A DNA stretch of 64,000 bases, from positions 372,001-436,000 of the forward strand of contig NZ_JAINZT010000005.1 of the NCBI RefSeq assembly GCF_020166515.1, read 5' to 3'. A program made the position numbers and the translations under genes. Positions 43,307 through 54,536 of this stretch are shown here, piece after piece; within the stretch, counting starts at the first letter, position 1; every line of letters begins with the position of its first letter. Origin of the DNA: Robertkochia flava. GTDB lineage: Bacteria > Bacteroidota > Bacteroidia > Flavobacteriales > Flavobacteriaceae. A model generated the notes under the pieces. It saw only the letters and a list, made by a program, of their open reading frames with translations, was not told where the DNA came from and did no database searches.

Positions 43307-43768
43307 ATGGCAAATTATATTTTAAACATAAACGGTAAGAGGCTTGAAGTAGAGGTAGATCCTTCGACACCTTTACTCTGGGTATTGCGGGATCATTTAA
43401 AGCTCGTAGGTACCAAGTTTGGATGTGGTATGGCACAATGTGGTGCCTGTACTGTTCATATTGATGATACCGCGGTTCGTTCCTGTGTTTTACCGGTTTC
43501 TTCCGTAGCGGAAAGTAAAATTACAAATATAGAAGGATTGTCGGCAGATGGTGATCACCCGGTACAACAGGCCTGGATGGAGGTTGATGTTCCACAATGT
43601 GGATACTGTCAGGCAGGTCAGATCATGACTGCCGCAGCATTACTCAAGCAAAATCCGAATCCGACCGAAGAGGAGATCGAGTCTGCGATGAACGGGAATA
43701 TATGCAGGTGTGGTACGTATCTCAGAATAAAAAAGGCAGTGCAGATCGCTGCCGGAAAAACCTCCTGA
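43307..43768 (+). CDS. 2Fe-2S subunit of a molybdenum hydroxylase (IorA-like)
   Basis: 153 residues with the two iron-sulfur cluster domains of xanthine oxidase-family small subunits. The plant-type site is [12 protein letters not shown] with a later RSC, and the helical second site is [10 protein letters not shown] plus NICRCGTY. It resembles isoquinoline 1-oxidoreductase alpha subunit. There is no signal peptide, so it is expected to be carried out in complex with the Tat-targeted large subunit encoded 23 bp downstream. Confidence 0.93.
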
Positions 43769-43791
43769 ACCAATTCATAAAACAGAAGACC

Positions 43792-46053
43792 ATGTCAATA
43801 AGAAAAACCAAAATAGGAAGACGAGCATTTATAAAGAATACCAGCTTGGCAGGTGGTGGGCTTATTCTTGGGTTCAGTATTCTGAATTCCTGTAGCACAG
43901 AGAAGGAGAAGTCCATGGCTGTTAAAGAAATGCCTGAGGAATGGTTTGAGATGAACGCCTATTTAAAAATAGGTGATAATGGGTTGGTAACCATTATGGC
44001 TCCCAATCCTGAGTTCGGACAAGGTGTTATTACCGCCATGCCGATGATCGTTGCTGATGAGCTGGATGTAAATTGGCAGGATGTGATCGTGGAGCAGGCC
44101 AATTTTAATGCGGAAGATTATGGATGGCAATTCACCGGGGGCAGCCAGGGAATTCGCAGACGTTGGGAAGGCCTTCGCTTGGCAGGTGCTACAGCCAAAG
44201 CCATGTTAGTGGCGGCCGCTGCCAAAACCTGGAATGTTCCCGCCTCTGAAATTTCGGTTGCCGAAGGAATTTTGACTCATGAGCAGACCGGGAAAAAGGC
44301 AGGATTTGGAGAGTTGGCCTCCATAGCAGCCACCATGGAGGTTCCTGAAGAAGTGCCATTAAAGAATGTAAAGGACTTTACGATAATCGGTACTTCTAAG
44401 AAAAGTGTTGAAAATAAAAAGATCGTAACCGGAAAGCCATTGTTCGGTTTGGATTATCAATACGAAGGGGCATTGGTGGCTATGGTGGAGCACCCACCAG
44501 CTTTTGGTTTACAGTTAAAATCTTACAATGATGAAAGTGTTCGCGCTATGTCGGGCATTGTTGATGTTTTTAAGATTAAGACCCTGGAAGACGGCTTTAA
44601 GCGCGGATACTTTGATACCAATGCCTTCACTGATCTACTGGTTATCGTAGGTAAAAACACCTGGGAGGTAATGAATGCTAAAAAGGCGATGAAAGCAGAG
44701 TGGGAGCCGATAGCCGATTCTAAGTATTTAATGGATCAGTTCGGAACCGAAGTAGAGGTGGAAGTGCCAGGAGGGTTAGAAAGTACCACTGACCATTATG
44801 CTAAGATGAAGGAAATGGCATCCAGAGCATCGACAGTAATGAGACAGGATGGTGATCCCGAAAAGGTTTTCAGGAATGCCGACAATGTTATAGAGCGTTC
44901 TTACAGTTGTCCCTTTCTGGCTCACAATTGTATGGAACCGATGAATTTCTTTGCTAATGTTACGGACGAAGGAGCACACCTTGCCGGACCACTTCAAGCA
45001 CCGGGATTAACCGAAACCACGGTGGCTGCCCGTTTGGGAATTCCTGTTGAAAAAGTAGAAATTGAACTTACCCGAATGGGTGGAGGATTCGGAAGGCGGG
45101 CATATGGCCACTATGCCGTTGAGGCTGCTTTGATCTCTCAACAAGTAAAGGCACCGGTAAAGCTTATTTATACTCGCGAGGATGATATGACCTTCGGGAT
45201 ATATCGCCCATCTTATTATGCTACCTATCGGGCAGCCCTCGATGAAAATAATGAATTAATTGCTTTTCATGTGAATGCAGGAGGGGTTCCGGAAAGTCCG
45301 TTGTTTCCTAATCGATTCCCAGCAGGAACAGTAGAGCATTACCTTGCGGAACAATGGGCCATCAAATCGAATATCACCATTGGAGCCTTCCGGGCACCCC
45401 GCTCCAATTTTATGGCCGGAGCAGAACAAGCCTTTTTGGATGAGGTCGCAGAAGCTGCAGGTAAAGATCCCATTGATTTTCGCCTGGAATTACTCGAGAA
45501 AGCAAAGAACAACCCTGTAGGGGAGGAAAACGAATACGATCCTGATCGCCTGGCGGGGGTGCTTAAATTAGTACGGGAGAAATCAGACTGGGATACGCCC
45601 AAACCGGGAGTGTCTCGTGGGGTTTCAGCCTATTTCTGCCATAACAGTTATGCGGCTCACGTATTGGATATAGTAATGGAAGGGGACAGGCCTGTAGTGC
45701 AGAATGTGGTTTGTGCCATTGATTGCGGTATTGTGATCAATCCTGATGCTGCTGCTAATATGGCAGAGGGTGCGATTATAGACGGTGTTGGGAACGCCAT
45801 GTATGGTGTGCTCTCTTTTAAGGACGGTAAACCCGAGCAAACCAATTTTGATACATACAGAATGATCCGTCATACGGAGGCGCCGAAGCAGGTAGAGGTA
45901 CATTTCGTGCAGAATGAGGTCGACCCCACAGGACTGGGAGAGCCCCCATTTCCACCGGTTTTTGGAGCGCTTGCCAATGCACTCTATAAGGCTACCGGAC
46001 GCAGGTATTATCACCAGCCATTTAATGCAGATCATTCTGAACTGTTGGGATAA
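43792..46053 (+). CDS. Molybdenum hydroxylase large subunit, Tat lipoprotein (IorB-like), copy 1
   Basis: 753 residues from the ATG at 43792; an in-frame extension to 43597 overlaps the 2Fe-2S gene and is spurious. The N-terminus has a twin-arginine signal (IGRRAFIKNTSLAGGG) ending in a lipobox (ILNSC), so it is folded, exported and lipid-anchored. The cofactor regions are GGGFGRRAYG and FRAPRSNFMAG. The catalytic Glu lies in TGLGEPPFPPVFGAL (about E717). It should hydroxylate an aldehyde or N-heterocycle in the periplasm with a cytosine-dinucleotide-type molybdenum cofactor; the substrate is unknown. Confidence 0.92.
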   Translation: MSIRKTKIGRRAFIKNTSLAGGGLILGFSILNSCSTEKEKSMAVKEMPEEWFEMNAYLKIGDNGLVTIMAPNPEFGQGVITAMPMIVADELDVNWQDVIVEQANFNAEDYGWQFTGGSQGIRRRWEGLRLAGATAKAMLVAAAAKTWNVPASEISVAEGILTHEQTGKKAGFGELASIAATMEVPEEVPLKNVKDFTIIGTSKKSVENKKIVTGKPLFGLDYQYEGALVAMVEHPPAFGLQLKSYNDESVRAMSGIVDVFKIKTLEDGFKRGYFDTNAFTDLLVIVGKNTWEVMNAKKAMKAEWEPIADSKYLMDQFGTEVEVEVPGGLESTTDHYAKMKEMASRASTVMRQDGDPEKVFRNADNVIERSYSCPFLAHNCMEPMNFFANVTDEGAHLAGPLQAPGLTETTVAARLGIPVEKVEIELTRMGGGFGRRAYGHYAVEAALISQQVKAPVKLIYTREDDMTFGIYRPSYYATYRAALDENNELIAFHVNAGGVPESPLFPNRFPAGTVEHYLAEQWAIKSNITIGAFRAPRSNFMAGAEQAFLDEVAEAAGKDPIDFRLELLEKAKNNPVGEENEYDPDRLAGVLKLVREKSDWDTPKPGVSRGVSAYFCHNSYAAHVLDIVMEGDRPVVQNVVCAIDCGIVINPDAAANMAEGAIIDGVGNAMYGVLSFKDGKPEQTNFDTYRMIRHTEAPKQVEVHFVQNEVDPTGLGEPPFPPVFGALANALYKATGRRYYHQPFNADHSELLG

Positions 46054-46114: not shown

Positions 46115-48370
46115 ATGAAGGATGTTAGGACTAAAATAGGACGAAGGGCATTTATTAAAAACAGCAGCCTTGCTGGTGGCGGTCTTGTTCTTGGTTTTAG
46201 TATCCTGAATTCCTGCACTCCTGAAAAGTCCAAAACCATGGCGGTAAACGATATGCCGGATGAATGGTTTGAGATGAATGCCTATTTGAAAATAGGGGAG
46301 AATGGTGTGGTCACCATAGTGTCGCCCAATCCTGAAGGCGGACAAAATGTAAAAACCTCCATGCCGATGATCATTGCAGATGAACTGGACGTTGATTGGC
46401 AGAAAGTTGTTGTGGAACAAGCACCATTAAACACAGATGCTTTTAGTTTTCAATTTATAGGTGGAAGTCAGGCCATCAGAAGGGGGTGGCCGGGCTTGCG
46501 TCTGGCAGGTGCTTCTGCGAGGCAAATGCTTATAAACGGGGCGGCTTCTGTTTGGTAGGTTCCATCAAATGAAATAACGACGAAGCAAGGGGTGCTTTAT
46601 CATGAGCCGAGCAACAGGTCTTTAGGCTATGGTGAAGTAGCATCTATGGCTGCTGGATTATCAGTACCGGAAGAAGTGGCACTAAAGGAAAAAGAAGAGT
46701 TTACCATCATTGGTACTTCAAGAAAAAATGTAGATGGGTTAAAAATAGTTACCGGCGAACCCTTGTTCGGTATGGACACCTACCGTGAAGGAATGCTGAT
46801 CGCAATGATCGTTCATCCCCCGGCATTTGGATTAAAGATTCGATCCATAGATGATTCTGCTGCGAAAAATATGCCAGGAATAAGGGATATTTTCAAGATT
46901 AAAGTGTACAATGAGGATTATGTGAAAACGTTTTTCGATACCCGTACCTTTAACGAAGTTGTTGTCATAGTGGGAGGTTCCACCTGGGAGGTCATGCAGG
47001 CTAAAAAGGCACTTAAGATCAATTGTGAGCCTATTCAGGGTAAGACTGAAAAAAGAGATCGGTTCGGAACGGCATGGGAACAGCATACACCTTCGGGGTT
47101 AGAAAATACATCAGACCATTATGCCCGGATGGAACAAATGGCGAATAAAGGCGGCGCAGTTATGCGTAAGGATGGTGATCCGGAAAAAGCCTTCCTGAAT
47201 GCCGAGAAGACCATAGAAAGAACCTACACGGCACCCTTCCTGGCTCATAATTGCATGGAACCGATGAATTTCTTTGCTGACGTGAAAGAGGATAAGGCTG
47301 AGTTAATAGGTCCGCTGCAGAAGCCGGAGTTTACAGAACAGACATTAGCTGCGCGACTTGGTATGCCGCTTGAGAATATCGATATTAAAATGACCCGTCT
47401 GGGAGGCGGTTATGGTCGGCGCTCCTATGCACACTGGATGGTAGAAGCAGCTTTGATCTCACAAAGAATGAAGGCTCCGGTGAAGTTGATATATACCCGG
47501 GAAGATGATATGACCGATGGGATCTATCGTCCTTCCTATTTGGTAAAGCTCAAAGCGGCGTTGGATGCCAATAATAAGCTGATCGCATACCACGTAAATG
47601 CCGGGGGAATTCCTGAAAGTCCGTTGTGGGAGAATCGGTTCCCTGCCGGAACTGTAGAGAATTATTTGGCTGAAGAATGGACCATTGACAGCAATATCAC
47701 TGTTGGGTCTTTCCGTGCTCCCAGTTCCAATTTTATGGCCTGTGCAGAACAGTCATTCCTGGATGAGGTAGCGGAACTTGCCGGGAAGGATCCTATGGAT
47801 TTTCGCCTGGAACTTCTGGGCCGCGCAATTTCCGATCCTGTGGGAGAGGAGAATGATTATGATCCGGTACGGTATGCTGAGGTGCTGAAAACGCTAAAGG
47901 AGAAGTCAAATTGGGCTGAAAAGAGTTCAGATCTGTCCCGTGGTATGGCAGCTTACTTTTGTCATAACTCTTATGCCGCTATGGTGCTTTATATGAAGGT
48001 TAAAGATAATATTCCGGTTGTCGAAAAGGTTACCTGTGTCCTGGACTGTGGAATCGTGATAAATCCGGACTCGGCAAGGAATATGGCCGAAGGAGGTATT
48101 GTTGATGGAGTAGGCAATGCGTTTTTTGGGGAGATGACCTTCGATGATGGTGTGCCATCTAAAAGCAATTTTGACACCTACCGGATGATCCGCATGAGCG
48201 AGGCGCCTAAGGAGATCGAGGTACATTTTATGGATAATGGAATTGATCCTACGGGTCTTGGGGAGCCTACCTTCCCGCCGGTGTTTCCTGCTGTTGCCAA
48301 TTCACTTTATCAGGCAACCGGCCAAAGATTTTATAAACTTCCGTTTACACTCGATAGTGAGGATGTTTAA
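46115..48370 (+). pseudogene. Molybdenum hydroxylase large subunit, copy 2, interrupted by one in-frame TAG
   Basis: Tandem paralogue of the preceding gene, 752 codons including the stop. It has the same twin-arginine/lipobox leader (GRRAFIKNSSLAGGG, ILNSC), GGGYGRRSYAH and the catalytic GLGEPTFPPVF. A TAG at 46556-46558 (codon 148) falls between Trp and Val-Pro, at the position where copy 1 has Asn. The frame is otherwise open and aligned on both sides, so one substitution explains the break. The 3' part could start at a GTG at 46592 but would lack the leader. It could be a recent pseudogene, a sequencing error or a read-through gene. Confidence 0.85.
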
Positions 48371-48625: not shown

Positions 48626-49232
48626 GGATTATTCGCCTTCGGCTCATGATCCAGGTAGGGGGATGTTGCTCAAAAACGCCCTGACCACACTGGCGTGTGG
48701 GCTGGTTTTTCTATACGCCTTATAAAAGAATTGGCTCCTTCCCCCAGCCGGGGGAAGGTGGCAGCGTTAATTGCGCTGACGGAAGGGGGGGATTACTCGT
48801 AACGCTTCGCGTTACTCATGATCCAGGTAGGGGGAATGTTGCTCAAAAAAGCCCTGACCACACTGGCGTGTGGACTAATTTTTATCTATAAGCCTTATAA
48901 AAGAATTGGCTCCTTCCCCCAGCCGGGGGAAGGTGGCAGCGTTAATTGCGCTGACGGAAGGGGGGATTACTCGTAACGCTTCGCGTTACTCATGATCCAG
49001 ATAGGGGGATGTTGCTCAAAAAAGCCCTGACCACACTGGTGTGTGGCCTGGTTTTTTCTATACGCTTTATAAAAGAATTGGCACCTTCCCCCAGCCGGGG
49101 GAAGGTGGCAGCGTTAATAGCGCTGACGGAAGGGGGGGATTACTCGTAACGCTTCGTGTTACTCATGATCCATGCGGAGAGATGTTGCTCAAAAAAGCCC
49201 TGACCACACTGGCGTGTGGCCTGTTTTTTTAT
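48626..49232. repeat. Tandem array of a ~173-bp multi-hairpin intergenic repeat (about 3.5 units)
   Basis: The GCTCAAAAA landmark recurs at 48668, 48841, 49014 and 49187, exactly 173 bp apart. A full unit contains hairpin 1 (CCTTCCCCC/GGGGGAAGG), hairpin 2 (CAGCG/CGCTG) and hairpin 3 (GTAACGC-TTC-GCGTTAC at 48799-48815, 48973-48989 and 49146-49162). Hairpin 4 (CCACAC-TGGC-GTGTGG) follows and is bounded by AAAAGCC and GGTTTTTT like a terminator. The leftmost copy has only a short hairpin 3 (GCC-TTC-GGC at 48635-48643) inside the same flanks. There is no open frame conserved beyond the repeat itself. It lies downstream of tRNA-Pro(GGG) and shares motifs with 54140-54385. Confidence 0.85.
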
Positions 49233-49241
49233 CCCCATACG

Positions 49242-49282
49242 CTTACAAAAGCGAGCCTGTCTGACGACAGTCAGGCTTTTGA
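49242..49282. terminator. Terminator-like hairpin next to the array
   Basis: AGCCTG-T-CTG and CAG-T-CAGGCT form an 18-base-paired-type stem with loop ACGA, bounded by AAAAGC and TTTT. It lies between the repeat array and the tRNA terminator. Confidence 0.45.
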
Positions 49283-49295
49283 CGCTTCAGGGAAT

Positions 49296-49329
49296 AAAAA
49301 AACCCGACAGTTTCCTGTCGGGCTTTTTT
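49296..49329 (-). terminator. Intrinsic terminator of tRNA-Pro(GGG)
   Basis: CCCGACAG (49303-49310) and CTGTCGGG (49315-49322) form a perfect 8-bp stem; on the minus strand a T run follows. It begins right after the encoded CCA of the tRNA. Confidence 0.8.
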
Positions 49330-49331
49330 GG

Positions 49332-49405
49332 TCGGGATGACAGGATTTGAACCTGCGACCCCACGCACCCCATGCGTGTACGCTACCAGACTGCGCCACA
49401 TCCCG
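49332..49405 (-). tRNA. tRNA-Pro (anticodon GGG)
   Basis: On the minus strand the acceptor arms CGGGATG and CATCCCG pair exactly, followed by discriminator A and an encoded CCA. The anticodon stem CACGC/GCGTG holds loop ATGGGGT, giving anticodon GGG. The T arm shows GGTTCAAATCC. Length is 74 nt without CCA. Confidence 0.93.
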
Positions 49406-49649
49406 AAAAACAGCCGGAGCTGTTTTATGTAAAATCATTAAACCTAAACTTTCCGGTGTGAACTTAACTTCATATCAGTAACCGAAAATCCACTTCATCA
49501 TGGGTGAAAAGTGGATTGCAAAAATAAACGTTTATTCAAAATTACAATAGCTTTTTTCAAGATTTTCTTCCCCTCTGCAAGGACACTTTTTGTAAGTGTC
49601 TGAGGGTCATCATGAAATTCACAAGACCTTTTTTTAAGCCCGTTTTACC

Positions 49650-49692
49650 AAAAAAATATCCCCCGGTAGATTTTGAAAGCATCCGGGGGATA
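49650..49692 (-). terminator. Intrinsic terminator of the FadL-like gene
   Basis: TATCCCCCGG (49657-49666) and CCGGGGGATA (49683-49692) are perfect reverse complements; on the minus strand a run of seven T follows. The remaining 49406-49649 sequence shows no gene. Confidence 0.8.
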
Positions 49693-49714
49693 ACAACCAA
49701 TTAATTAAGAAAAT

Positions 49715-51025
49715 TTAGTTAAAACGATAGCTGACCCCAACCTGGATCATAGAGGTGGTCATATCATAAGATACCTCTGTACCGGGAACAGCTCCGTAAG
49801 GATTATCATTGGATATAAACATAGGATTCAAAGCAGGGCCGGAAGTTGAGCCGCTGCTGTCTCCGTAATGAAACACAGCATCGACTATGAAGCGGGTTCC
49901 AAATTCATAACTTAAACCAAGTTGATAGGCGTTCTTTATAATCGCCGTTGCCGGGATATTGAAGAAGGCCAGTTCTGAGGTTATAGGGTTGGAGGAGTAG
50001 GTGTATCCCACCCGTAAGGGTAATTTATTTATGCCCTTATACTGTATTCCCGCAGAGATGATGTTGATGTTCTTCCAGCCAAATCCGCGTACCGAAGCCG
50101 TTTGGGTCCATCCGGCTTTCTCAAATCCTTCGGTATTTTCATAGTTTACCAGTCGGTAGTCAAGGGCCAGATCGATATTGCCTAAAGAATACCCAAGTCC
50201 CACAGAGAAGATAGAAGGATAATCCATTCTGAAAGAGTTCTCTTCCTGGCTGTTGTCCAGATACGTATTGTCGAGATTGAAATCGCTGAAATATTGAGGA
50301 GTTTTATAGGATACTCCCGCCTTAAAGCCAACAGGACTTTCATAATACACTGCAAATTGAGCCCCATAGCCGAAGGCAGAAGCACGGTCTGCGGAGGGAT
50401 ATCCGGACGCATTCGGGTTCGCTGTTGGATTGGGAATGAGTTCCAGGGCCGCAAAGTTGAAATTGGGCTGTATCCCAAAGGAGATGCGGTCCGTTAACTG
50501 GTAGGCCCAGGTAAAGCCCAGTTGAAAGAGCAGGTAGTCGGATTCTATTCTTCCGAACCCTCCAAATTCCTGGGGCGCATTAACGGGGTTGGTCATGCTT
50601 TCCGGGAACGTAACCCCGAAGCCGCTAATCCCGAATGCAGAAACCCCGAATTTGGAACGGCTACCTTCCTTTCCCCAAACGAATGCCAGGGCGGGCATGG
50701 GGGAGGCGCCCCGATCATCATTGGTAACGCCGCTTAAAAAGTTTCCCGTAGGTTGTCCCGTTTGCGGATTGATCTCCGGTACGGTAGAGCGCAGTTCGGG
50801 ATCAGAAAAAAAGATCCCTATATCCAGTTTAAATTGTGAACCTTCAAATGTGGTTATCGCTGCCGGATTCCAGTGTAAGGCACCTGAAATATCCAGGGCT
50901 TGTCCGGTGGCGGCTCCACCCATTGACATGTTTTTGGCTCCGACGCCTTGCATGATATGTCCTGCCTGGGCATATAAGCCGAAAGAGGCCAGGAGCGAAA
51001 ACATGGTGAATAATAGTTTTTTCAT
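49715..51025 (-). CDS. OmpP1/FadL-family outer-membrane transporter
   Basis: 436 residues with a signal peptide (cleavage after LYAQ-like sequence). The N-terminal hatch region GAKNMSMGGAATGQALDISGALHWNPA is typical in pattern: conserved GxGxAxxG followed by NPA. A 14-strand barrel follows, ending in the outer-membrane signature MIQVGVSYRFN. FadL-type channels move long-chain fatty acids or other hydrophobic compounds across the outer membrane. This matches the acyl-CoA catabolic genes elsewhere in the window but they are not linked. Confidence 0.9.
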   Translation of the reverse strand: MKKLLFTMFSLLASFGLYAQAGHIMQGVGAKNMSMGGAATGQALDISGALHWNPAAITTFEGSQFKLDIGIFFSDPELRSTVPEINPQTGQPTGNFLSGVTNDDRGASPMPALAFVWGKEGSRSKFGVSAFGISGFGVTFPESMTNPVNAPQEFGGFGRIESDYLLFQLGFTWAYQLTDRISFGIQPNFNFAALELIPNPTANPNASGYPSADRASAFGYGAQFAVYYESPVGFKAGVSYKTPQYFSDFNLDNTYLDNSQEENSFRMDYPSIFSVGLGYSLGNIDLALDYRLVNYENTEGFEKAGWTQTASVRGFGWKNINIISAGIQYKGINKLPLRVGYTYSSNPITSELAFFNIPATAIIKNAYQLGLSYEFGTRFIVDAVFHYGDSSGSTSGPALNPMFISNDNPYGAVPGTEVSYDMTTSMIQVGVSYRFN

Positions 51026-51182
51026 CGCGAATCTGTTTTTGATTTATACTGTGTTCAAAAAACATTATTGGGGTGGATCTGCCTACTAAATTAGTGGGAA
51101 GTAACCTTTAAGGGCATGACTTTTATCATAGAAGCAATTTCTTTGACCTTCCGGTGGTAACAGAGGTTGCCCAGGGCATCAC

Positions 51183-53795
51183 CTATTGTTTGGCAACCTT
51201 TCTGAAAAAGGTGCCTTCCGGGGTAATGACCTCCAGGAGGTAGATTCCCTCCTGCAGGAAGGAAAGGTCTATAGAGGGGTCGTAGGACTCCAGAATCCGG
51301 GTTCCCTTAAGATCAAAAATGGTGGTGCGTACCACCTCCTTATTGAATTTAATACGGTTTTTTGCAGGGTTAGGGTAGATAAACAAGGGGCCGTCATCAG
51401 GGATTCCCTCCAGGATGGTCAGGGGAAAGAATGCTGTGATCGTATTTCCTGAACTGTCTGAAATGGTTATTTCCAGGTCGTATTCCCCTTCCCGAAGCAT
51501 ACTCCCTGCAGGGGGAGACTGGGTGATGATCAGGTCCTCAGATAACGCGCAATTATCCTCTGCAACGATCAATGGCCTGAGGTCTGGAACTTCGGTTTTT
51601 TCCTTTTCCGCTACATAGAGCAGCAGGGGTAAAGACTTGGATTCTGTGATCAGACGAGGTGCTTTAAGATCCACCACCTGGATATTAGCCATACAACTGC
51701 TGCTGTTCCCGTGAATATCGGTGGCTTTCACCATGATGGTTTGAGAACCTTTGGATTCGCAGGTGAAAACTGCAGTTTCAAACTCCAGGTCAAACGCACT
51801 GGGATCGGTTATGTGTGCCCTGAGAAATGCATCATCCGCCACTGCCTGTCCATCGGGCCCCAGTTCAAGAAACATCTCATCACAGGCGATCTCAGGAGCC
51901 CTGGTGTCGATCACATCGATGGTCCGGATTTCTTCCGCAGTATTGCCATACAGATCCGTAGCGCTGTAGATCACCTCGTAGGTGCCAACCTCCTCCAGGA
52001 GGGGACTGGTATCCAGGATCACCTCAGAACCATCGTCAGTATAGGCCCCGGGATCTTCAAAGTTCTCTCCGGCCTCCAAAACAAATGGATTGTCGCCATT
52101 CAGGTATATTACCGGAGGGGTCTTATCGTCCAGTTCAAATGCCCCGATATCTGAAAGTGGTCCCAACAGGACTGGATTTCCGAAAAAATCGGTTTCACTG
52201 TTATTGTCAGGAATGGGGATGGCAGTATTTAAAGCCGGAGAACGGTGGGAGAGTTGATAGGCATCAAGGGATTGAAGATCATTCCCGAACCCAACGGTAC
52301 CTCCCTTCCCGGGATTGTTTAATTCAGGGTCGGTATACAATCCTGCCGGAAGGCCGTCTATAAGTTCATTACCTGTGGTTCTGAAAGCTTCCAGGGTATT
52401 GTAGGTGGTACCGTGATACTTCCAGAGCGATTGCCCTTGGGAATAATACAGGTTATTGACCAGGTTTACCGGAAAGTTTTTGGGTACGCTGATAAAGGGC
52501 GTGTTCCCCATGGTGTAAAAAATGTTGTTGGCAAAATATACTCCGCTTCCGGTGCTAAGATGATCTAAAACTCCTGCTGCGGCATGCTCCGGATTATCGG
52601 GCATATTTCCCGTATATACCGTGTTGTGATAGATGCTGATATTTTCGGGTGGAAAATCCGGGTTGAGGTTAAAAAGGTAGATCCCCCCGCCATTGGTACG
52701 GCCATCATTTTCACTAATATTATACCGTACGGTAATATTATTCATCCTGCGCGAATCGATGAACTGGCCGATGAGAAATCCCGAACCGTCGTTGTCATGT
52801 GAATAGTTGTACTGCATTATCCCGTTGGTAACCCCTCCGTCAAGATCGAAACCTCCGCCGTCACAACCCGTTCCGGAACTAATGTTGTAGGATTCACAGT
52901 ATTGAATAGTAACCTGATCCGAATCGTAATACCAGATGCCTACAGGGCCCCCGCATTGGGTATTGTTGTATCCGCAATTGTAGGTCGTACTGTGCTCAAT
53001 AACGGAGTTTTGTACATCCGAGATCACGATTCCGCTTCCGGAATGCACTTCACTGTCATATCCGGGAATATCAAAAACTTCCGTATTCCTCACCGTAATG
53101 TTGGAATGAGAATACCCTTGTTTAACCTGGGAAAAGGTTCCGGTTGCCTTAATTCCTGCATCAAGGCATTGATAAACTTTTACCTGGTCAATTAGCACTT
53201 TGTCAAATCCGGAATTCCCGGAAAGCCCGGAAATGGTTATGCCATCTACTCCAAATCCGCTTATTTCCAGTTTACTTAAAATGATGTTGGATAGTTTATA
53301 ATTTCCCTCCAGGGTGTTTCGCAAAAGGATTCCGCTCCTGGAATTGGTTTCCATCCCGCTTCCCTGGATATGAAGCCGGGTGATAGCGATCCCTTCTCCG
53401 TTTTCGATCCAGATTCCGATGCCGTTACCGGCAGCTATGGTAGCGGACCCTGTGCCAAAGGAAGAAACGCTTATGATTCTTGTAGGGTCTCCACCGTCGT
53501 TTTCATCCAGTTTTAGCTGCCCGTTAAAAATATCCCCGGATTTAAAAAGAATGCTGTCTCCCGGTTTGAAGTTGACATTGTTAAGTTTGTTGATGGTTGC
53601 CCAGGCTGTGGCAGGGGTCAGGCCATCTGCGGTATCGTCTCCCTCACTGGCAATATAATAGGTGGTTTGTGCCGATAGTAGTCCACATTTTAGAAACACC
53701 AAGAGAACTAAAAAGGCAAAGTGTTCATGAGATATTGCGGTGCCGGAAATTAATGGAAATGGAAAGAAACCTCTCTTCGTTTGAATCTTCTTCAT
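51183..53795 (-). CDS. T9SS-secreted right-handed beta-helix protein
   Basis: 870 residues. Signal region to about 43, then a DUF1565-like start (YYIASEGDDTADGLTPATAWATI) and a right-handed parallel beta-helix to about 500 with many NNITVRYN-like turns, as in polysaccharide lyases or adhesins. A DUF5011 Ig-like domain follows (PFVLEAGENFEDPGAYTDDG), then HYR-like domains (about 590-790). A C-terminal T9SS type A sorting domain is seen in FIYPNPAKNRI, DLKGTRILE and EGIYLLEVI. It is likely exported by T9SS and attached to or released from the cell surface. Catalytic residues could not be identified. The signal peptide is unusually long at its start. Confidence 0.85.
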   Translation of the reverse strand: MKKIQTKRGFFPFPLISGTAISHEHFAFLVLLVFLKCGLLSAQTTYYIASEGDDTADGLTPATAWATINKLNNVNFKPGDSILFKSGDIFNGQLKLDENDGGDPTRIISVSSFGTGSATIAAGNGIGIWIENGEGIAITRLHIQGSGMETNSRSGILLRNTLEGNYKLSNIILSKLEISGFGVDGITISGLSGNSGFDKVLIDQVKVYQCLDAGIKATGTFSQVKQGYSHSNITVRNTEVFDIPGYDSEVHSGSGIVISDVQNSVIEHSTTYNCGYNNTQCGGPVGIWYYDSDQVTIQYCESYNISSGTGCDGGGFDLDGGVTNGIMQYNYSHDNDGSGFLIGQFIDSRRMNNITVRYNISENDGRTNGGGIYLFNLNPDFPPENISIYHNTVYTGNMPDNPEHAAAGVLDHLSTGSGVYFANNIFYTMGNTPFISVPKNFPVNLVNNLYYSQGQSLWKYHGTTYNTLEAFRTTGNELIDGLPAGLYTDPELNNPGKGGTVGFGNDLQSLDAYQLSHRSPALNTAIPIPDNNSETDFFGNPVLLGPLSDIGAFELDDKTPPVIYLNGDNPFVLEAGENFEDPGAYTDDGSEVILDTSPLLEEVGTYEVIYSATDLYGNTAEEIRTIDVIDTRAPEIACDEMFLELGPDGQAVADDAFLRAHITDPSAFDLEFETAVFTCESKGSQTIMVKATDIHGNSSSCMANIQVVDLKAPRLITESKSLPLLLYVAEKEKTEVPDLRPLIVAEDNCALSEDLIITQSPPAGSMLREGEYDLEITISDSSGNTITAFFPLTILEGIPDDGPLFIYPNPAKNRIKFNKEVVRTTIFDLKGTRILESYDPSIDLSFLQEGIYLLEVITPEGTFFRKVAKQ

Positions 53796-54139
53796 AGTCT
53801 TAGGTTGGAATAAGCGCGTTATTCAGCACAAGTAATTCAGTCTAGGGGGAGTAAGTATATGGTGTTCTAAATTACACATAATCAGGTAATTACAAAATTT
53901 AAATGGTCCGAAATCGATGCGTTTTAGACGAGCGGTTCCCGGACTAAAATAATGCCAATTTTATCTGATTTTCATCGGCGAAAAAACCTTCAAAATTATC
54001 ATGTTTATGAAGATTCTGAACTCCGGGTTTGCATTTCTGCTAAAGGATGGTATTGTGGGCCAAGAACCGGGCGTGATAAAAAGGTGGGTAGACTATTTTA
54101 GCGATGCGGCCAGCCGGTGCCTGGAGGATTATGTCTAAA
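53796..54139. other. Intergenic region, possible 45-codon ORF
   Basis: Mostly AT-rich DNA upstream of the beta-helix gene. A 45-codon plus-strand frame runs 54001-54138 (ATG to TAA), encoding a peptide with KRWVDYFSDAASRCLEDYV at its end. It has no recognised homology or promoter and may be spurious. Confidence 0.3.
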
Positions 54140-54385
54140 GCGCTGACGGAAGGGAGCTGGGTTATTCGCACTCCGTTTTCTTGTTCGTGATCTTTAGTGG
54201 GAGGTGACTTACAAAAGCCGCCCAGGGCGATGCCCTGTGCCGGTTTTTTTATGCCTTGTTTGATGAAACCGGGAAATAGAGAGCAGGATTACTCGGTTAG
54301 CAAAGCTAACCTCGTGATCCTTAGGGGGAGGTGACTCACAAAAGCCGCCCAGGGCGTTGCCCTGTGCCGGTTTTTTTATGCCCTT
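54140..54385. repeat. Two-copy 127-bp repeat related to the 48626 array
   Basis: A block starting GTGATC and running through ACAAAAGCCGCCCAGGGC to GTGCCGGTTTTTTTATGCC occurs at 54187 and 54314, 127 bp apart. Each copy forms hairpin CAGGGC/GCCCTG (54223-54237 and 54350-54364) bounded by GCC and GG-T7. The second copy is preceded by GATTACTC, the hairpin GGTTAGC-AAA-GCTAACC (54295-54311) and TCGTGATCC, the same flanks as hairpin 3 of the 48626 array but with different arms. GCGCTGACGGAAGGG near 54140 is also shared. Confidence 0.75.
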
Positions 54386-54423
54386 GCGCTTATGCAAGCG
54401 GGCTTGCAACGCTTCAGGGCATA

Positions 54424-54457
54424 AAAAAAGCCGGACAACATCTGTTGTTCGGCTTTT
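54424..54457 (-). terminator. Intrinsic terminator of tRNA-Pro(UGG)
   Basis: AGCCGGACAACA and TGTTGTTCGGCT pair along 12 positions with one G-T pair; A runs on the left give a T run on the minus strand. Confidence 0.78.
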
Positions 54458-54461
54458 CTGG

Positions 54462-54536
54462 TCGGGGTGGCAGGATTCGAACCTGCGGCCTCCTGCTCCC
54501 AAAGCAGGCGCGATAACCGGGCTACGCTACACCCCG
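54462..54536 (-). tRNA. tRNA-Pro (anticodon UGG)
   Basis: Minus-strand acceptor arms CGGGGTG and CACCCCG pair exactly; discriminator A and an encoded CCA follow. The anticodon stem CCTGC/GCAGG holds loop TTTGGGA, giving anticodon UGG. The T arm contains GGTTCGAATCC. Length is 75 nt without CCA. Confidence 0.95.

Follow-up and report, generated by a model that had tools for sequence, protein, structure and literature searches.

The closest described counterparts of the repeats analyzed here are the rtT repeats of E. coli and integrative elements that target tRNA genes. The rtT repeats, i.e., the distal repeats of tyrT/tyrV whose RNA we take to be Rfam family RF00391, are tandem units (178 nt in E. 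coli) behind a tRNA gene, and behind E. coli tyrV the tRNA-Tyr 3' end recurs in three exact 19-nt copies that begin at A58 and lie 159, 337, and 515 nt downstream. Integrative elements such as islands, integrative and conjugative elements, and prophages insert at tRNA 3' ends, of which they carry a direct repeat, and integration that reconstitutes an intact tRNA gene is given as their rule in the available part of PMC8371274. The repeats in question lie in a 64,000-nucleotide stretch of the Robertkochia flava genome (contig NZ_JAINZT010000005.1, positions 372,001 to 436,000), in the following called the window. They form cluster 1 (48626-49230) and cluster 2 (54160-54377), each directly 3' of a minus-strand tRNA-Pro gene according to the window sequence and ARAGORN, and both read naturally in the direction of the tRNA. 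Our interpretation, to which we assign a probability of roughly 0.5, is that these repeats are decayed units without an open reading frame (ORF) of an element that accretes at tRNA 3' ends, with a GIY-YIG nuclease as its probable motor.

A first-pass annotation of the window had described repeated hairpins with changing but still pairing arms in both clusters, and such hairpins are indeed present; the neighboring tRNA-Pro genes had been missed. Reading the DNA downstream of all 41 tRNA matches in the genome revealed the same order of parts at 16 tRNA loci. The tRNA is followed by T1 (a hairpin that probably serves as the terminator of the tRNA), hp2 (a T-run/A-run stem around a central hairpin, often AAGCTTGCTT), T2 (previously called hairpin 4), a linker, and hp3 (previously hairpin 3), which typically reads GGATCAC - variable hairpin - GTAATCC. 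The arms vary between tRNAs, yet they pair within a locus: the flanks of T1 and T2 reach a mean complementarity score of 10.3 at their own locus versus 5.9 with other loci (0 of 10000 permutations), and the own partner is best or tied in 13 of 16 rows. The suggestion that this is not a described RNA family holds for Rfam 15 including Flavo-1, where neither the window nor 13 array loci have a match at gathering score other than tRNAs. For the Rfam RtT family, cmscan returned no match in the window at gathering score or in the 13 array loci at E up to 1.

The likeness to rtT lies in the junctions. Each tRNA-end copy of rtT is preceded by GAGT, as in GAGTAATCC of the window. In addition, GGGGAAGGAT within the rtT unit is complementary to ATCCTTCCCC and precedes a mismatch at A58; the window family has the same junction form. 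Unlike this family, rtT lacks T1, hp2, and T2, is confined to one tRNA operon, and has a predicted fold in which pairing stops at the mismatch instead of continuing as in hp3. In contrast to tRNA-targeted integrative elements, the units are only ca. 170 nt long, form tandem arrays at many tRNAs, and carry conserved covarying hairpins, while no integrase or cargo was noticed in them without a systematic integrase search. By analogy, the window repeats behave like both rtT repeats and tRNA-targeted integrative elements, and we file them as members of neither. A narrow literature search found nothing on tandem elements behind Bacteroidota tRNA genes or on nuclease-linked tRNA trailers.

As judged by sequence comparison, hp3 is a junction between units to which the tRNA contributes. 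Its 3' arm (z) copies the T-arm strand of the adjoining tRNA and in relatives is often extended by 17 nt that copy the tRNA 3' end; tandem units that each carry the 3' ca. 19 nt of the upstream tRNA, and direct repeats of the tRNA 3' end at both ends of the element, are likewise found in relatives. In R. flava these copies are mostly worn, and the match in the window spans only about 8 nt (at tRNA-Pro(TGG)). A scan with the 3' end of tRNA-Ser(TGA) yielded at least 120 stretches from Flavobacteriia or other Bacteroidota. Among the 120 loci listed, of which 8 had less than 215 nt of downstream DNA, 26 carry a downstream copy of the tRNA-Ser end that agrees in at least 14 of 17 nt. The distance from the tRNA is 147-170 nt for 24 of these copies, and an upstream reverse-strand control gave 0/120. 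A trailer pattern (T-run, A-run, z arm) picked 38 tRNA-Ser trailers from the first 80 loci among the matches listed plus five others, and 36 of these were kept. Their A58 step is never a Watson-Crick pair (36/36; C.A in 25, G.A in 9, and A.A in 2), with the A on the z side being part of the picking pattern, and the two steps thereafter pair in 34/36 and 33/36 trailers with compensatory changes. The same mismatch step occurs in all 11 aligned copies of R. flava as U.G on the plus strand, i.e., as C.A on the tRNA strand. Integron attC sites are also imperfect hairpins with a fixed mismatch, an internal loop, and a variable tip, a likeness to hp3 in form.

The match between junction and tRNA favors the own locus. 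Across three whole genomes, a copy of the own tRNA end (at least 13 of 17 nt) was found at 11 of the 88 scored tRNA loci versus 123 of 7140 foreign ends (1.7%), a comparison made with fixed 17-mers and covering 88 of 97 loci. In R. flava, z arms fit their own tRNA better than others (6.9 versus 5.7 of 10 positions; 2 of 20000 permutations), and the other arm of hp3, y, has a pairing partner in nt 63 of the own tRNA at 15/16 loci in an anchored test for which the y core was placed by hand.

Folding and covariation support the hairpins themselves. The hp3 copies at 48790 and 54287 fold better than 200/200 shuffles on the plus strand, and 0 and 1 of 200 shuffles, respectively, fold as well on the minus strand; a third copy from a tRNA-Ser array (L004) does not stand out, with 10 and 56 of 200 shuffles being as good. 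An alignment of 11 genomic hp3 copies (R1; three tRNA-Met copies were left out) has 89.8% of its cells paired and both-sided changes in 7/14 pairs (reached by 6/500 shuffles), with a covariation score reached by 0/500 shuffles. The hp2 region, aligned from 13 loci (R2; Pro-GGG, Leu-CAG, and Leu-TAA left out), covaries at 10/18 pairs, and its covariation score was again reached by 0/500 shuffles. These shuffle tests are inflated by related rows. Used as a covariance model, R2 matches 42/149 genomes of the family at E <= 0.01 and, at E <= 0.001, 9/296 genomes of the phylum, of which two lie outside the class; both counts include R. flava. Among the 29 loci kept from other genomes in the family search, 25 hold a tRNA and two of the remaining four a tRNA 3' end, and a tRNA is present in 17 of the 20 loci examined from the phylum search.

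Different units can occupy one and the same orthologous site. Two genomes of one genus, G274 and G376, share a unit B at tRNA-Arg(ACG) that is 96% identical over 147 nt, and their sequences upstream of this tRNA align (84% and 79%). Between the tRNA and B, G274 carries a 97-nt unit C, whereas G376 carries a different unit A of ca. 156 nt that is preceded by an island of ca. 1.65 kb; units C and A share an end at AATCCTGGCGAGGTCAC. In addition, two different trailers stand in tandem at one tRNA-Ser when read by eye (L161). Before the same downstream gene, three further loci hold two units (L145), a remnant (L159), or T1 only (L141), a series in which gain and loss look alike. We consider it probable that units accrete by some site-specific process, whichever enzyme may drive it.

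The candidate for this enzyme comes from longer units. In a tRNA-Ser array of Psychroflexus curvus (L182), tRNA ends are spaced by 177, 177, 373, 178, and 177 nt, and four of these units are ORF-less. The 373-nt unit 3 begins with nearly the same T1 as the ORF-less units and then encodes an 87-residue GIY-YIG protein (Pfam PF01541, 4.2e-17). Similarly, some units in the tRNA-Asn arrays of G274 and G376 have a T1 that passes into the beginning of a GIY-YIG ORF (Pfam match for one G376 ORF), and in G376 the first 22 nt are common to an ORF-less unit and the ORF units. More generally, 6 of the 29 small GIY-YIG loci examined lie no more than 450 nt from a tRNA, compared to a chance of 1.4% each. 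Like GIY-YIG homing endonuclease elements, this arrangement places a small GIY-YIG ORF within or next to tRNA genes and surrounds it with tRNA fragments; unlike those, the units have no intron or intein, most of them are ORF-less, and homing is putative.

Small GIY-YIG ORFs were also seen directly upstream of tRNA genes or inside duplicated 5' tRNA parts (L057, L058, L240, L252, L261, and L268), involving tRNAs for Leu-CAA, Met, Asp, Arg, and Pro, with a short palindrome breaking the tRNA fragment in some cases. By its sequence, this arrangement looks related to but distinct from the trailers and resembles a nuclease element homing into tRNA genes. Because only a minority of the small GIY-YIG loci examined lie at trailers, we dropped the rule that such genes are the autonomous form of every trailer. 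At tRNA-Ser of Myroides guanonis (L116:2850-4060), a trailer is followed by ca. 1 kb that includes an uncharacterized 194-residue ORF and then by a tRNA-end copy, and this stretch is possibly a cargo unit.

In our reading, a complete unit consists of ca. 155 nt plus a copy of the last ca. 17 nt of the tRNA, comprising a replacement T1, hp2, T2, and the element-encoded arm y. Its end is the start of the next tRNA 3'-end copy from about nt 57/58 in the T-loop, and the hp3 junction is composed of y, the variable hairpin, and z as the tRNA's own T-arm 3' strand, with the mismatch at A58. On this view, arms change together because y has to fit its tRNA, while at each locus T2 corresponds to T1 in its outer arms. 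Insertion would be site-specific at the tRNA 3' end, and the small GIY-YIG nuclease of the longer units may move both ORF-bearing and ORF-less kinds through homing-type break and repair at the tRNA. Ordinary tandem recombination could later change copy number and homogenize units within an array. The first-pass annotation had explained complementary arms by selection on a folded RNA or a DNA cruciform. That the arms are kept complementary, by selection or templating, is borne out in this genome and across species, but a mobile-element reading at the DNA level fits the tRNA-end copies in units of relatives and the position beyond the terminator better than a free-standing RNA does.

Several observations weigh against this proposal. 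The pairing of y with nt 64 (9/16) and nt 65 (1/16) of the tRNA is not beyond chance, a cruder comparison of y with tRNA 3' strands gave no signal (5810/20000), and within R. flava 13/17 nt of the tRNA-end copy are kept at tRNA-Met only. For hp2, further pair types (one of five measures) were reached by 121/500 shuffles. A tree-aware covariation test on the 36 tRNA-Ser trailers (L093 and L106 having been dropped beforehand from 38 rows) left only 3/11325 significant pairs, one in T1 and two in hp2, and one of them is 83% canonical, though this test has little power with an uneven alignment. G274 and G376 do not align downstream of unit B, and no unit movement was observed. Concerning the motor, unit 3 of L182 has its own end hairpin with a tRNA copy beginning ca. 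two nt later than in the ORF-less units, and the tRNA-Asn junction falls within the anticodon arm instead of the T-arm. Among trailer units, GIY-YIG ORFs were seen in L182 and the tRNA-Asn arrays only, and at other tRNAs they lie on the 5' side. A small home-made GIY-YIG hidden Markov model (HMM) found no match in L092-L171 and, with only matches up to 600 nt from a tRNA listed, L182 alone in L172-L211. The window's own arrays contain no GIY-YIG ORF when its ORFs are read by eye.

Insertion at tRNA genes could alternatively point to miniature non-autonomous integrative elements that a tyrosine recombinase from tRNA-targeting islands mobilizes in trans, with the 17-nt repeat as att core and y/z as core-binding arms. 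Insertion with the tRNA restored fits the rule given for such elements in that same part of PMC8371274, and the G376 island at tRNA-Arg(ACG) ends in a longer tRNA 3' part. Judged by eye, candidate tyrosine-recombinase-like frames follow a truncated trailer in L132 and, in R. flava, start or end close behind tRNA-Asn (L040) and tRNA-Leu(CAA) (L047). However, the length of the stretch separating y and z ranges from a few nt to more than 20, in contrast to a crossover region of fixed size, the ORF-carrying unit encodes GIY-YIG, and no recombinase was noticed inside ORF-less units, for which no systematic search was made; we regard this explanation as unlikely. The units might also have arisen without any mobility by tandem duplication of a tRNA end and terminator followed by unequal crossing-over and gene conversion. 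This would account for the high similarity within arrays and for copy numbers that differ between congeners, and rtT is indeed recorded as a 175-bp variable-number tandem repeat in Salmonella Paratyphi A in the accessible portion of PMC2658671. Yet the same conserved anatomy recurs at many different tRNAs, different units adjoin or replace each other at one tRNA (L161, by eye; L288/L316), and an ORF-bearing unit sits among ORF-less ones with the same left end (L182), which makes pure duplication quite improbable in our eyes.

The remaining possibility is a functional trailer RNA or terminator array in which hp2, T2, and hp3, the latter as a mimic of the T-arm, act in cis on tRNA termination, maturation, or read-through. 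Place and orientation behind tRNAs, terminator-like hairpins, covariation, and wide spread would all suit such a role, and E. coli rttR is annotated as a small RNA. But T1 separates the tRNA from everything else, about half of the tRNA units in R. flava lack the structure (by eye), and only T1 or a remnant is left before the same downstream gene in L141 and L159, respectively. Moreover, by eye, several loci with the structure have a counterpart tRNA in a congener that lacks it, with flanks that cannot always be aligned. A cis-acting trailer appears highly doubtful to us.

All features of the two clusters are given here on the minus strand. Cluster 1 belongs to tRNA-Pro(GGG) at 49329-49405 (ARAGORN; Rfam RF00005), which is directly followed by T1 at 49296-49329. 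The terminator-like stem at 49303-49322 inside T1 appears in the terminator scan on the plus strand only, though its palindrome can be read both ways. The hp2 region (49220-49308; R2 match C9:421222-421306) has an additional palindrome nested in its loop. Four units follow, seen in the sequence and, where noted, in the terminator scan: unit 4 with T2 at 49191-49230 (scan) and hp3 at 49137-49171, unit 3 with T2 at 49018-49057 (scan) and hp3 at 48964-48998, unit 2 with T2 at 48845-48883 (scan, listed on the plus strand) and hp3 at 48790-48824, and unit 1 with T2 at 48672-48710 (scan, likewise plus strand) and the shortest hp3 at 48626-48652. The hp3 copies of units 3 and 4 are part of the covariation alignment, and that of unit 2 was used in the fold-versus-shuffle test. 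Cluster 2 belongs to tRNA-Pro(TGG) at 54459-54536 (ARAGORN; Rfam), with T1 at 54423-54458, which probably acts as terminator and is absent from the terminator scan list, and the hp2 region at 54367-54435 (R2 match C9:426369-426433). Its tRNA-proximal unit comprises T2 at 54340-54377 (scan) and hp3 at 54286-54320, whose z arm AATCCTGC matches AATCCTGC of tRNA-Pro(TGG), and its distal unit comprises T2 at 54213-54250 (scan) and hp3 at 54160-54192 (covariation alignment).

As the first-pass annotation had it, hp3 has the arms GCC/GGC in unit 1 and GGTTAGC/GCTAACC at 54295-54311, and T2 has CCACAC/GTGTGG in cluster 1 (unit 4) and CAGGGC/GCCCTG in cluster 2 (tRNA-proximal unit). The arms GTAACGC/GCGTTAC that it had assigned to three hp3 copies are exact in two, and the third (49137) reads GTAACGC/GTGTTAC and pairs via G.T. 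The distal copy of cluster 2, which it had not listed, has the flanks GGTTATTC..TTCGTGATC around degenerate inner arms that no longer pair. Its view of a composite of up to four hairpins had to be given up, as its hairpins 3-4 belong to the tRNA element, whereas hairpins 1-2 form a nested palindrome unrelated to it.

These hairpins 1-2 (CCTTCCCC..GGGGAAGG and GCAGCG..CGCTGACGG) had not been recognized as a separate family of dispersed palindromes. Outside the tRNA element proper, sequence and repeat analysis place copies at 48733-48791, about 48908-48964, and 49080-49137, and another one occurs on contig C1, where the 3-kb locus contains no tRNA. If this palindrome had entered one unit and been amplified along with it, the 172-174-nt spacing seen in cluster 1 would be accounted for. 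By motif, hairpins 1-2 resemble CGTC-tagged palindromes. Both these and repetitive extragenic palindromes (REP) form short imperfect hairpins in arrays, as do the window repeats, and CGTC-tagged palindromes are said to have no dedicated transposase, all as far as the available text of PMC3733652 goes. The window elements differ from REP in being tied to tRNA 3' ends. A REP-type system with a REP-associated transposase was rejected, as Y1_Tnp (PF01797) has 0 matches in the genome at E <= 0.001, with 5/14 control genomes matching. The palindrome in the hp2 loop of cluster 1 (49256-49275, CCTGTCTGACGACAGTCAGG) is shared with the genome's His and Arg-TCT arrays.

Three of the genome's four matches to DUF559, a Vsr-like nuclease, are flanked on both sides by short G/C-rich palindromes (L009, C6:88085; L010, C1:50313; L011, C10:66034), which at C6 and C1 are of the hairpin 1-2 type (CCCCTTCCGTC..GCCACCTTCCCC). 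Since these genes are flanked by palindromes and not by hp3, DUF559 was dropped as a mobilizer of hp3; the narrow literature search found nothing on DUF559 with palindromes. Elsewhere in the window, a molybdopterin-oxidoreductase-like gene (46115-48370, as read from its translation) is split into two frames (46115-46558 and 46592-48370) by either a frameshift or a sequencing error, and an intact paralogue adjoins at 43597-46053.

Tentatively, the units may be part of a phylum-wide group of tRNA-gene parasites, i.e., GIY-YIG nuclease units accompanied by ORF-less satellites, which would home into the T-arm, replace the tRNA 3' end and terminator, and use tRNA-matched junction hairpins, with E. 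coli tyrT/rtT as a possible offshoot. If the proposed accreting element is real, it would explain a widespread class of repeats behind Bacteroidota tRNA genes and give the rtT repeats of E. coli a possible origin. It would also add a non-coding, satellite-like element that has the tRNA T-arm as its target and a small GIY-YIG nuclease as its likely motor.

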